In this document: positions 1,343 to 13,076 of the stretch, piece by piece
How positions within the stretch are numbered: position 1 is the stretch's first letter
How the letters are laid out: every line of letters starts with the position of its first letter
IMG/VR virus record: IMGVR_UViG_3300010160_000063
Span: 1-50,923 of that record
Source of the DNA: a virus
DNA: 50,923 nt
Direction: 5' to 3' (one strand)
Position numbers and translations under genes: made by a program
The notes under the pieces: model-generated
The model's database searches: none
Seen by the model: only the letters and a program-made list of their open reading frames with translations
What the model was told of the DNA's origin: nothing

Positions 1343-1530
1343 CGAATTTGTTATTATTATTATATTTAATATATATCTTATAACTTAATATATAAATATC
1401 ATCTATCTATCTATATAATATATAGTACCACACATTGAACTTTTGTCAAGCCCTTTTTGTGCTAAATTCATGTAAATTTTGTATAACGATTTTATACACA
1501 GAGTTATCCACAGCCTGTGATATAATATTA
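1343..1530. other. Candidate replication origin: AT-rich stretch plus tandem DnaA boxes
   Basis: From about 1351 to 1430 the sequence is almost pure A/T, with TTA and ATCT repeats: a likely DNA-unwinding element. It is followed by two same-strand matches to the DnaA box TTATNCACA: TTATACACA (1492-1500) and TTATCCACA (1504-1512). A near match lies in reverse orientation at 1478-1486, so that GTATAA (1481-1486) and TTATAC (1492-1497) form a palindrome. A promoter begins immediately after. The site lies where transcription diverges. Origin function is inference. Confidence 0.5.
1518..1526 (+). promoter_or_regulatory. Extended -10 promoter for candidate small RNA
   Basis: TGA-TATAAT lies 5 bases after the second DnaA box. 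A start about 7 bases downstream would be at G1533, the first base of a perfect 8-bp inverted repeat. Confidence 0.5.
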
Positions 1531-1532
1531 CT

Positions 1533-1590
1533 GCTAGTATTTTTGGTGTCTCTCTCACATACCCACCGCCGAAGATACTAGCACTTTTGT
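1533..1590 (+). ncRNA. Candidate structured small RNA (about 55 nt)
   Basis: GCTAGTAT (1533-1540) pairs exactly with ATACTAGC (1575-1582). The 34-base interior holds a possible second helix, GGTG (1545-1548) with CACC (1564-1567). The 3' arm is followed by ACTTTTGTTTG, a weak U-rich release site. The predicted transcription start coincides with the first base of the stem. There is no ORF, and the next gene has its own promoter at 1604. It may be an origin-linked RNA, a regulatory RNA or an attenuated leader. Confidence 0.35.
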
Positions 1591-8900: not shown

Positions 8901-8907
8901 TGTAGTG

Positions 8908-8916
8908 TGGTAAAAT
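8908..8916 (+). promoter_or_regulatory. Extended -10 promoter, near-leaderless, for 8925 gene
   Basis: TGG-TAAAAT is followed by 8 bases and the ATG at 8925. It rules out the GTG at 8907, which lies inside the promoter. Confidence 0.5.
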
Positions 8917-8924
8917 TAATTATC

Positions 8925-11900
8925 ATGGCAAACTCTTCCAATCTTTATGCAGACAAAATTCTACAACAGCACCCATTAGCTTTGTGGACACTAGATAGTG
9001 ATGCCAAATATCTATCTTTAATTACAGATGCACAAAGAAGTTTATCCACTAACTGGACTTTTACCTCAAGTTTTTTGGGTACAACCACAACTGAATTAAA
9101 CCCTAAACTTGGAACAACAGTATCATTGCTGTATAAAGATGGCGTTAATTCTGGAACATTTTTTACAGCAACAAGTGATTTTACATTTAACTCAAATAGC
9201 GATAGTTTTACTATTGGTGCATATGTTTCAAAAGCAAGTCCATATATTACACAGATTGCGATAGGATATGATATTGGTGGAACAATTACATATTCAACTC
9301 CAACCATTACAATTACAGAAGATATGTATAATTATCAATATGTTTCTGCTACTTTTAATACCACGGTTACTGGAGCAAAAGTTGTTTTAAGATTTAATTA
9401 TTCTGCTCCAGCATCTGCAGACAGAGTTGCTGTTATGGTTAATGGACTTACCGTTGGAAAATGGGCAGAAGATTTTAACGTAGAAGACTTAGGAAGTCAA
9501 AAATCAACAATTCCAACAACAATAGCTATTCCAAAAACATCTGGTATTTTAGCATCACAATATAATACAGCTTTTAATCAACCAACAGGAACCTATACAG
9601 ATAAGCAAGGATATTATGTTGTTCAAGGCGATGTCTCCTATGCAAGAAATACTGGACATCCAATGGTTTATGGTTGCACAAATTCTACTAAGATTTATCC
9701 ATATACCGCAAATGAACCATCGCTGATTCTTCCAGGGTATGGATTTTTAAATGAAGTAGATAAGTATAAAACAAAAACATATGAAATGTGGTTAAAGATA
9801 AATTCATCTACATTGTCAATGAAAAGAATAATGGGTCCAATATCTAGTAATGATGGACTATATGTAGATTTAGCAAATTTAATTCTTAAGGTAGGAACTA
9901 ACTTTATTTCATATTATATTGGTGAATGGGATAGACCAATGTTAGTTCAAATTGTAACTTCACAAAGTAGTGCAGAAATGTTTATAAATGGAGATAGTGT
10001 TGGAAATCTTAAATATGATATCAAAGACATATTACTTTCTGAATATTATTATCCAACAACTTTAGACAATAAAATTATTAACTCTAATTTTGAAAATCAT
10101 AACGTTGGCTGGGGAACCAGAAATGGAACGAATGCTCGCTCTACTGGTGATTCTTTTATAGGCTCTGCATCAATTCTTTACACTGTTGGCTCTACTGGAA
10201 CAACTGGTGGTATCAATACAGTAACAGCCCCAACAACGGTTGCTATTACTGCTGTTACTCCAAGTTCTCCATCTGTTGGCTATGTAAAATATACAGGAAA
10301 TAATATTTATTCCGTAGGTGATACTGTAACAACCTCTAACTTAGCACCAGCAGGATATAACGGAACATTTACTGTTACGGAAGTAACAGACACATATTTT
10401 GTTGTTGCTAATGCCACAACCACAACCGTAACAGATGGTATAGGTTCATCTACATCTACAAATACAAAACTAATTCCAATATCTCCTGGAAATACATACA
10501 CTTATTCTATTTACATGAAAGATGTAAATACAGGAAAGCAATATAACAATGTAATAGATTATTATGACTCATCGCTAGGTTTGATTTCTGGAAGTTCATC
10601 TATTGGACCAGCAACAACAATTTCGTCTTCAGATTGGACAAGAGTAACTTATACTTTTACAGTTCCAGAAACCGTCGGAACATCTCCAACTGTTCCAGCA
10701 TATGCAAGACCTTATACATATTCAAGCACAACATTTGCAGTAGGTGATTCTGGAAAAACTGTGTATTATGATGGGGCATTATTCCAACAATCTACATTAG
10801 CTAATCCATATGTTTATAGAACACCAGCATCAAATATAGAACAAGACTGGATAGGCTTTTATGCTCATTCTAATGTTTCATTAGAAGTATCTTGTGTTGC
10901 TGTATATAATTATGGAATTACAAAATCAACAGCTTTATCTAGATTTTCTTATGGTCAAGCAGTAGGTTTTCCAAAAGATGTGGTGTCTGCTTATTCTGGT
11001 TCAGCAATTGTTCCAGACTATACTCTTGCAAAATATGCTAATAATCAAAATTATGGAGTGTCACAATCTAATACTTGGAAAAGTGCAGTAACAAATAATA
11101 ATTTTATTGTAGACAAGGATACACTTTCAACACCAAATTATACTTTGCCAATAATTGAGATAGAGCCATCTAGCACACTAACTCAAACAGATATGCTAAA
11201 TGCATTATCATCAATTAATGCAACGTACTTTGACCTTCAACCAAACAGCACTTGGAATGGAATAGAGTCAAGAATATCTTTTAATAACTTTAAACAAATT
11301 TCAAATGATATTGATATGTTCTATACAGTATTTGATAAATCAGAAAATAACACAGACACTAAGCAAATTATTTTTCAAATTGTAGATATAAATAAACCTA
11401 AAAATTATTTAGAAGTATCTATTTTAAATAATACTCTTGGATATTATTTTTACTACAATTCAGATACCGCTTCAACGCTTGCAACTTTTAGTGCATCATC
11501 ACTAAATACTAAATATGCAGCTGCAATAAATATTACAAATTTAGTTACAAAAAATTCAAATTTTTCAAAGTTTTTTGCCAATAGAGAAAATCTAAAAATT
11601 TATGTTGGCGGTTCAAAAGATTTTACAGACGACCAAACATTTACTGGAAAAATATACATAGTTGGTTTTGGTGATTTAAGAAACTATGGCAAGGTATCTT
11701 CATCATTTAATCCCGATGGATACTATTCAACTATAACAGCAGGAAGTTTAAACACACACATTGCAAATTATACTCTTTTATTAAATAATGGTTGGAGTGG
11801 ACAATCATTTATGGATATTGCAGTAAATTCATATTGGCAAGATATTGTTCCTCTAAGTCGTCTTGCAAAAACGGTAGATGGTCAGTATAGACTTGATTAC

Positions 11901-13076
11901 CTACAATTTAACGTTGACTATCCAAATCAAATAGATGCTACAAGTGCAGATACTAAAACATATCTAACTTTTCAAACTGGCGGAAACCCAGATATCACAA
12001 CATTTGCAAACACAACAATTGTTGGAACAGATAGATATCTAAATATTACTAGTGCTTGGACAAATACTAAATATCAAGTAACTGATGGAACAGTTGTATA
12101 CATACCAACAAATGTTTCATCTAGTACATTAACGCTAGGAATTCATATAGAAACAAACAGTCCTGGAGTTATTATGAATCCGACCAACATAAGACATTTA
12201 CAAATTGCTGCACAAGCAATTGGTTCAAGTACAACAATTGGAACAAACGGAGATGAACTTATTTCTTTTGGAGCAGGAAATAATCCTATACTTATTTCTA
12301 AGTCTAATGACCCATATTATTATTTAACATCACAGTCTGGATTTAGGGTGGTAGGAACAAATGCATCAACTAGGGGATATTATTCAAATATAAATAAAGA
12401 CAAGTATGATGATTTTAGTATTGGTGCTATTCAATTTTCAGCAAAGTTCCCATTAACACAATTTGCAAATACTGAAACATTAATGTTTGAATTAGAAAAT
12501 GTTGATGATTCAACGAAGGTAAAGTTTTATGTAATTGGAGAAACATCAGCTTTGACTAGAGGTAGAATTTATGCCAAAGACCAATCTGGAGCAGCATACA
12601 CAAGCTTAAAGTATTATCTAAATGGTGTAGAGGTAGATAGAGCGATTGTTTCTATAGATGAATGGTTTATGCTAGGCATTAAGTTTACAACTGATTATAG
12701 CCTTAACTCAAAAGCTGGAAAGTTTAATTTCTCTGGCAAACAATTAATAAATCATTTTGAGTATTTCCAACCAAACTCAAGTCAAAGAAATTCACCAATA
12801 TACATATATCCAAAATGGATTAATGTTAGATATTCTGCAATTGCATCAAAAACATGGAATGACTATACTGCATTAACTTGGCAAGATGTGGCAACAAGTC
12901 CAGCAACATCAGTATTTGTTGGTACAAATCCATCAAATATTCAGGAAGTATTTTCTGGAACAGGTAAAAAGATTGTTGGAAAAGACTATTCGTATCCATA
13001 TCTAATACCACAATCGTTCTTATATAGAGCATTTATGGCAATAGAGACTACCACATCTGACGCAATACCTCTATAA
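8925..13076 (+). CDS. Large multidomain tail adhesin with LamG-like and carbohydrate-binding domains (1383 aa)
   Basis: N-terminal PLALWTLD is typical of phage adhesins. Residues about 30-180 look like a galactose-binding-type jelly roll. About 285-370 (YEMWLKI...AEMFINGD) is a LamG/concanavalin-like domain. About 385-610 is a carbohydrate-binding jelly roll (NSNFENHNVGWG ... TYSIYMKD ... WTRVTYTFTVP) split by an inserted 70-residue FCCH-like module (about 441-509). Further ConA-like regions are at about 770-920 and near 1170-1290. A surface-polysaccharide binding role is likely. It lies just before the head genes and is read as a single gene from its own promoter. Confidence 0.75.
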   Translation: MANSSNLYADKILQQHPLALWTLDSDAKYLSLITDAQRSLSTNWTFTSSFLGTTTTELNPKLGTTVSLLYKDGVNSGTFFTATSDFTFNSNSDSFTIGAYVSKASPYITQIAIGYDIGGTITYSTPTITITEDMYNYQYVSATFNTTVTGAKVVLRFNYSAPASADRVAVMVNGLTVGKWAEDFNVEDLGSQKSTIPTTIAIPKTSGILASQYNTAFNQPTGTYTDKQGYYVVQGDVSYARNTGHPMVYGCTNSTKIYPYTANEPSLILPGYGFLNEVDKYKTKTYEMWLKINSSTLSMKRIMGPISSNDGLYVDLANLILKVGTNFISYYIGEWDRPMLVQIVTSQSSAEMFINGDSVGNLKYDIKDILLSEYYYPTTLDNKIINSNFENHNVGWGTRNGTNARSTGDSFIGSASILYTVGSTGTTGGINTVTAPTTVAITAVTPSSPSVGYVKYTGNNIYSVGDTVTTSNLAPAGYNGTFTVTEVTDTYFVVANATTTTVTDGIGSSTSTNTKLIPISPGNTYTYSIYMKDVNTGKQYNNVIDYYDSSLGLISGSSSIGPATTISSSDWTRVTYTFTVPETVGTSPTVPAYARPYTYSSTTFAVGDSGKTVYYDGALFQQSTLANPYVYRTPASNIEQDWIGFYAHSNVSLEVSCVAVYNYGITKSTALSRFSYGQAVGFPKDVVSAYSGSAIVPDYTLAKYANNQNYGVSQSNTWKSAVTNNNFIVDKDTLSTPNYTLPIIEIEPSSTLTQTDMLNALSSINATYFDLQPNSTWNGIESRISFNNFKQISNDIDMFYTVFDKSENNTDTKQIIFQIVDINKPKNYLEVSILNNTLGYYFYYNSDTASTLATFSASSLNTKYAAAINITNLVTKNSNFSKFFANRENLKIYVGGSKDFTDDQTFTGKIYIVGFGDLRNYGKVSSSFNPDGYYSTITAGSLNTHIANYTLLLNNGWSGQSFMDIAVNSYWQDIVPLSRLAKTVDGQYRLDYLQFNVDYPNQIDATSADTKTYLTFQTGGNPDITTFANTTIVGTDRYLNITSAWTNTKYQVTDGTVVYIPTNVSSSTLTLGIHIETNSPGVIMNPTNIRHLQIAAQAIGSSTTIGTNGDELISFGAGNNPILISKSNDPYYYLTSQSGFRVVGTNASTRGYYSNINKDKYDDFSIGAIQFSAKFPLTQFANTETLMFELENVDDSTKVKFYVIGETSALTRGRIYAKDQSGAAYTSLKYYLNGVEVDRAIVSIDEWFMLGIKFTTDYSLNSKAGKFNFSGKQLINHFEYFQPNSSQRNSPIYIYPKWINVRYSAIASKTWNDYTALTWQDVATSPATSVFVGTNPSNIQEVFSGTGKKIVGKDYSYPYLIPQSFLYRAFMAIETTTSDAIPL
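10245..10450 (+). repeat. FCCH-like module copy A (in 8925 gene)
   Basis: It encodes an about 70-residue unit: ITAV(T)PS.P.VG.V.YT..N.(F/Y).(V/I)GD.V....L.P(A/S)GYNGT...T......F.VAN.TT..VTD. Other copies are in the genes at 29845 and 30741. Confidence 0.75.

Follow-up and report, generated by a model that had tools for sequence, protein, structure and literature searches.

A conserved hairpin, predicted to be a small RNA, at a fixed place in genomes of uncultivated actinophages

Short untranslated RNAs are known from several phages. OOP, 24B_1, and AgvB of enterobacterial phages are transcribed from their own promoters and have proposed RNA contacts, mostly in temperate phages of gamma-proteobacteria, and several of these RNAs use Hfq (PMC12197685, PMC4104026). 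The hairpin family described here would resemble them in size, in being untranslated, in having its own promoter and in its proposed contacts, whereas it consists of a single hairpin with a fixed loop, occurs in many actinophages and shares no sequence with them. HK022 put RNA and lambda nut offer another likeness, a hairpin that is needed as RNA and lies where a phage transcript begins or close to that point. Those elements, compared here by description, act in cis on long operons; in contrast, the gene next to the present hairpin is self-promoted and, in many members, a T-tract comes right after the stem. 6C RNA (Rfam RF01066) is likewise a small actinobacterial RNA with C-rich loops, but it is bacterial and has two stem-loops. 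Finally, bacterial and phage origins with DnaA boxes have an A/T-rich run and tandem TTATCCACA boxes, as does the locus in the clade of the present virus. Unlike at such origins, the boxes here are not kept family-wide, the GC skew shows no turn at the site, and related genomes have similar pairs at other places. Phage small RNAs are a known kind; in the sources searched, this hairpin family appears to be new, as does its architecture.

The locus, its neighbor genes, and the probable hosts

The window, that is, the whole stretch of DNA analysed, is an entire IMG/VR virus record of 50,923 bases. It is probably a fragment, because close relatives read whole measure 64-95 kb and the first bases of one of them (G035, 92.9 kb) recur at its end. 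The features of the locus are as follows.

1055-1342, + strand: gene for a 95-aa protein with an N-terminal hydrophobic stretch and a weak phrog_9869 match, upstream of the hairpin and co-directional with it
1351-1430, no strand: A/T-rich run, its position kept in relatives, some of them without the hairpin
1492-1512, + strand: tandem pair of TTATNCACA boxes (DnaA-type), spaced at a 12-bp period and lying in the -35 region of P1; confined to one clade
1518-1526, + strand: P1, extended -10 promoter TGA-TATAAT, the promoter of the small RNA, with a predicted start at 1533
1533-1591, + strand: predicted hairpin small RNA, with a 16-bp stem (1533-1548 with 1567-1582), the loop UCUCUCUCACAUACCCAC (1549-1566) and a short T-rich tail
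1555-1566, + strand: best-conserved part of the loop, UCACAUACCCAC in the window and CUCAUACCCAC in most relatives
1604-1609, + strand: P2, -10 element TATAAT, 6 nt 5′ of the ATG of the tail-tip gene; a leaderless mRNA is predicted
1616-2002, + strand: gene for an Ig-like tail-tip/baseplate protein, phrog_1084 (unknown function), the constant downstream neighbor of the hairpin

A sequence-only reading had placed this site between divergent gene sets, which is wrong: the genes on both sides (1055-1342 and 1616-2002) lie on the + strand, and in 60 of 66 relatives the hairpin and the nearest ORF before it share one direction. The same reading rightly put the site far from the replication genes, namely those for a DnaB-like helicase (39957), a primase (41435), and an SSB (42412). 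In one relative (L004:4290-4760), the spacing from the 95-aa gene to the A/T-rich run is longer than in the others, with an apparent inserted ORF on the reverse strand that might encode an HNH-type endonuclease. Farther along the window, a 1389-aa ORF (8907-13076) lies between ribonucleotide reductase and the portal region; it matches nothing in PHROGs and nothing significantly in Pfam.

Where that part of the contig is present, the hairpin is found almost always directly 5′ of one and the same Ig-like tail-tip gene. The protein model is Ig-like (AlphaFold pLDDT 86.5), its best solved matches in Foldseek are the tail tip/baseplate proteins of T5 and DT57C, and phrog_1084 is matched in 22/22 members. 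A search for this gene in phage records and species genomes found none. WhiB, a marker of actinophages (PMC10202952), exceeds the cut-off in 20 of the 35 records and so suggests that the hosts are actinobacteria; the window itself has no WhiB match. The freshwater setting mentioned below is inferred from this host group.

A family with variable stems and one loop

The 8-bp inverted repeat noticed at the outset, GCTAGTAT at 1533-1540 with ATACTAGC at 1575-1582, can be read in the sequence. The structured element is real but was described too small, since the repeat is the base of a 16-bp hairpin spanning 1533-1582. This hairpin folds with -21.8 kcal/mol (z = -7.0), and none of 200 shuffles folds as well. 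Relatives were collected with the upstream 95-aa gene, with the downstream gene and by two DNA scans. At the same place in the relatives obtained via the 95-aa gene there are hairpins whose stems differ and which have one loop in common. About 95 distinct family sequences are present in uncultivated actinophage contigs.

An alignment of 42 dereplicated, diverse members (A2) reveals compensatory, two-sided change at all 15 modelled stem pairs, with 94.1% of the stem cells pairing. The covariation score is 0.694, compared with 0.344 for shuffled and at most 0.214 for slid alignments, and two-sided changed cells number 144 versus 35.3 in shuffled ones. Taken with the promoter at the stem base, this conserved family with compensatory change lends strong support to the putative structured small RNA that had been suspected here. 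Over the same alignment, the stem holds 64 G.U cells versus 5 A.C cells, so the folding molecule is the + strand as RNA. This excess of G.U pairs over A.C mismatches, as well as the promoter tied to the stem base, argues against an element acting as single-stranded or cruciform DNA, for example in packaging, nicking, or recombination. The single copy at a constant position in each genome would fit such an element, which we consider barely credible.

A covariance model (R1) was derived from 42 sequences, some of them taken from loci later searched. It scores the hairpin of the window at 63.1 bits (1524-1591) and detects the hairpin in 74 of 82 sources, nearly all just 5′ of the tail-tip gene, a count that describes distribution and is no independent test because R1 was partly trained on these loci. 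Among additional loci obtained by the loop 16-mer alone, R1 detects the hairpin in 57/61. When whole records were searched, 33 of 37 were positive, each with a single copy apart from weak reverse-strand shadows at the same site. Comparison therefore supports the assignment of 1533-1582 to a conserved, single-copy family of predicted hairpin RNAs of actinophages.

The loop, (G)UCUCUCAUACCCACC, is nearly invariant across the 42 diverse members, the stem varying freely. Its usual form is GUCUCUCAUACCCACC, and that of the window's clade is UCUCACAUACCCACC. Of 77 loci picked by the tail-tip gene alone, 70 have exact ATACCCAC in the 150 nt before the gene. Among the seven remaining loci, the hairpin of L015 stands before an inserted gene, those of L058 and L067 are found by R1 (the motif of L067 being UCUCUUACCCACC), and the other four (L014, L039, L047, and L081) have no family member in the R1 search. 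The invariance of the 8-mer in a set of 97 hairpins is a product of how that set was collected and is not used as evidence. At L231 (13061-13076) and L279, the exact loop 16-mer occurs in another setting, away from any tail-tip gene and beside GTGAGTATGAG, which is able to pair with it. These two cases, together with L269 and L280, have the 16-mer without the family hairpin and are probably due to chance.

The family is sharply defined and common in uncultivated actinophages, and Rfam does not contain it. No Rfam 15 model reaches its gathering score in the window; at E up to 10 there are only chance-level matches, none of them bacterial, and the 6C RNA model has no match. In catalogued phages, neither the hairpin nor the tail-tip gene was found at the sensitivity used. 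A stem-restricted pattern had zero matches in 84,980 prokaryote species genomes; this pattern misses part of the family, the window's own form included, because it needs CTAG-type stems and the common loop. In a string search of the literature, no paper gave the loop sequence in connection with a phage. Words that start with "actino" or "mycobacteriophage" are absent from a 2025 review of phage small RNAs.

Promoters, the T-rich tail, and possible modes of action

TGA-TATAAT is confirmed at 1518-1526, and the expectation that a transcript would begin at the first stem base fits the spacing from the -10 element, in the window and in most members. An extended -10 element (TGN-TANNNT) is found 5′ of 93/97 candidate hairpins, with TATG in 71. 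Of the 77 hairpins measured, 50 have 6-7 nt between this element and the stem, and many of the other distances result from the folding program extending the stem into the promoter. With this spacing in most members, the first stem base is the expected start of transcription.

After the stem, at least 4 T in 8 nt are present in 72 of 89 members; by a stricter measure, a T-run of 4 or more, 59 of 97 members have it. Termination is therefore not universal, a long T-tract being absent in part of the family. A stem with a T-rich tail between two co-directional genes could simply be an intrinsic terminator that stops transcripts coming from the upstream gene, its loop having no function. Such a terminator does not need a conserved loop, yet the loop is the best-conserved part; in addition, a promoter points into the hairpin, and part of the family has no T-run. 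We regard this explanation as improbable.

A promoter of the P2 type is located 6-9 nt 5′ of the ATG of the next gene behind 91/97 hairpins, with an SD-like sequence in one only. In these 91, the next gene lacks a Shine-Dalgarno site and is served by a leaderless promoter of its own, so it does not need P1. Extended -10 elements TGN-TATA(A/C)T occur also at window positions 2487, 13079, 21697, 38440, and others, several of them 6-9 nt before an ATG, and suggest that leaderless mRNAs may be common in this phage. A different arrangement is found in a clade of four loci (L015, L242, L282, and L262), where an SD-bearing gene without a promoter of its own comes right behind the hairpin and the T-tract is reduced. 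The inserted gene (L015:2227-2906 and its counterparts) has about 205-209 aa, lies between hairpin and tail-tip gene and perhaps encodes a 2OG-Fe(II) oxygenase, as read from its sequence. A promoterless SD gene behind the hairpin, combined with a reduced T-tract, suggests that P1 is active. This arrangement is a natural experiment, which helps to separate the terminator from the function of the loop.

Two modes of action may be considered for an RNA that starts in this way. The hairpin could act in cis: placed at the 5′ end of the P1 transcript, it would modify RNA polymerase, bind an elongation factor (as HK022 put and lambda nut do), or be a regulated attenuator of the tail-tip operon. This is the main rival of a small RNA acting in trans, though in itself rather unlikely in our estimate. 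Strict synteny favors it, for the hairpin stands always directly 5′ of the same gene where that contig part is present; furthermore, it sits at the predicted transcript start, and in the inserted-gene clade it would be the 5′ leader of an mRNA. Against a cis element speak the downstream gene's own leaderless promoter in 91/97 and the T-tract of many members, which should end the P1 transcript.

The best explanation, to which we give about an even chance, is a discrete small RNA that would act in trans via its loop. The product would be an RNA of about 50-60 nt with a stem and a fixed, nearly G-free loop. The stem would serve as protective scaffold and terminator, and the invariant loop (UCUCUC-AUACCCACC) as contact surface. 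The partner would most likely be a conserved host molecule, either a host RNA with a G-rich stretch (such as GGUGGGUAU) to which the loop would pair, or an RNA-binding protein of the host that the loop would titrate. This trans-acting RNA is favored because the stem pairs covary and the loop is fixed, the promoter is tied to the stem base, the next gene is self-promoted and the hairpin is single-copy. Several points were counted against it: strict synteny with one gene, which a cis role would fit too; the part of the family without a long T-tract; no partner in the phages' own genomes; and a pairing with rRNA like that of shuffled loops. The searches behind the last two points are as follows. 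Across 35 records, with the hairpin excluded, GTGGGTATGAGAG with up to 2 mismatches has about 35-40 matches versus about 59 for the reversed control, with no recurring target gene, and the window contains no perfect loop complement longer than 9 nt outside the locus. The rRNA was rejected as the loop partner: in 23S of E. coli, taken as a proxy, there is an 8-nt match, and 17 of 60 shuffled loops pair at least as stably.

More tentatively, and with clearly less than even confidence, the family could be a widespread riboregulator of actinophages, undescribed before: a minimal hairpin RNA whose invariant loop would capture the same conserved partner, a host RNA or an RNA-binding protein, in many different actinobacterial hosts. 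If this is true, the loop as bait could fish out that partner in bacteria that rank among the most abundant of fresh water. The contrast in evolution between stem and loop makes the loop well suited as a bait, and a pull-down with it, or expressing the hairpin in trans in a cultured actinobacterial species, could reveal the partner directly.

The A/T-rich run and the DnaA-type boxes

The locus had been taken for a candidate DnaA-dependent phage origin, with the adjacent RNA as a possible primer or regulator of initiation. Its sequence elements are real. The run at about 1351-1430 includes the A/T-richest 80 bp of the whole window (91% A+T), and the boxes are present as TTATACACA at 1492-1500 and TTATCCACA at 1504-1512, with a reverse near-match at 1478-1486. 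Two boxes less than 40 bp apart occur in 0 of 200 first-order Markov sequences of the window, so that the pair is above chance. Single boxes are not enriched in the window (3 versus 3.9 expected; with one mismatch, 60 versus 86).

The pair TTATNCACA-N3-TTATCCACA is found at the same place in the window, L004, L007, L029, and L190, and L002 is identical to the window here. Since the pair is kept in L004 despite diverged flanks, it is conserved in the window's clade. Conservation among relatives thus holds for a small clade (5-6 of about 70 loci) and fails beyond it, about 65 relatives with the same hairpin lacking the pair. Similar box pairs recur elsewhere in the three relatives of the window's clade that were read whole: at two more places in G009, at five in G034, and at two in G035, where one of them is a run of four box-like repeats (310-352). 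G020 has no boxes at the hairpin and one similar pair elsewhere.

An origin in which DnaA binds the boxes and the A/T-rich run is the unwinding element would agree with the tandem boxes conserved in one clade and with the run, which is the A/T-richest 80 bp of the locus in 56/63 relatives. The run is present also in the four loci without the hairpin. Against an origin here stand about 65 relatives with the same layout and no boxes, the similar pairs elsewhere in the same genomes, and the GC skew: instead of a turn at the site, the detrended extremes are 16-23 kb away in the three larger relatives read whole (G020, G034, and G035), a test limited by gene-strand bias. Box conservation, the other box clusters and skew reject the origin as the main explanation, and we hold it to be very improbable. 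A role of the RNA as replication primer has no support either, because the RNA would be transcribed away from the A/T-rich run and would end, in most members, at a T-rich tract. The box pair fits best as a promoter-associated site used by one clade, in which transcription from P1 may be adjusted by DnaA or by another protein that recognizes this site.

Tandem TTATCCACA repeats are located at G035:310-352 (L214; four box-like), G034:57058-57078 (L221), and G020:112362-112382 (L229), each followed by a shared element resembling TTACTGATT. Those of G034 and G035 lie within about 250 bp of the detrended GC-skew maximum. These three sites are better candidates for an origin or terminus than the hairpin locus.
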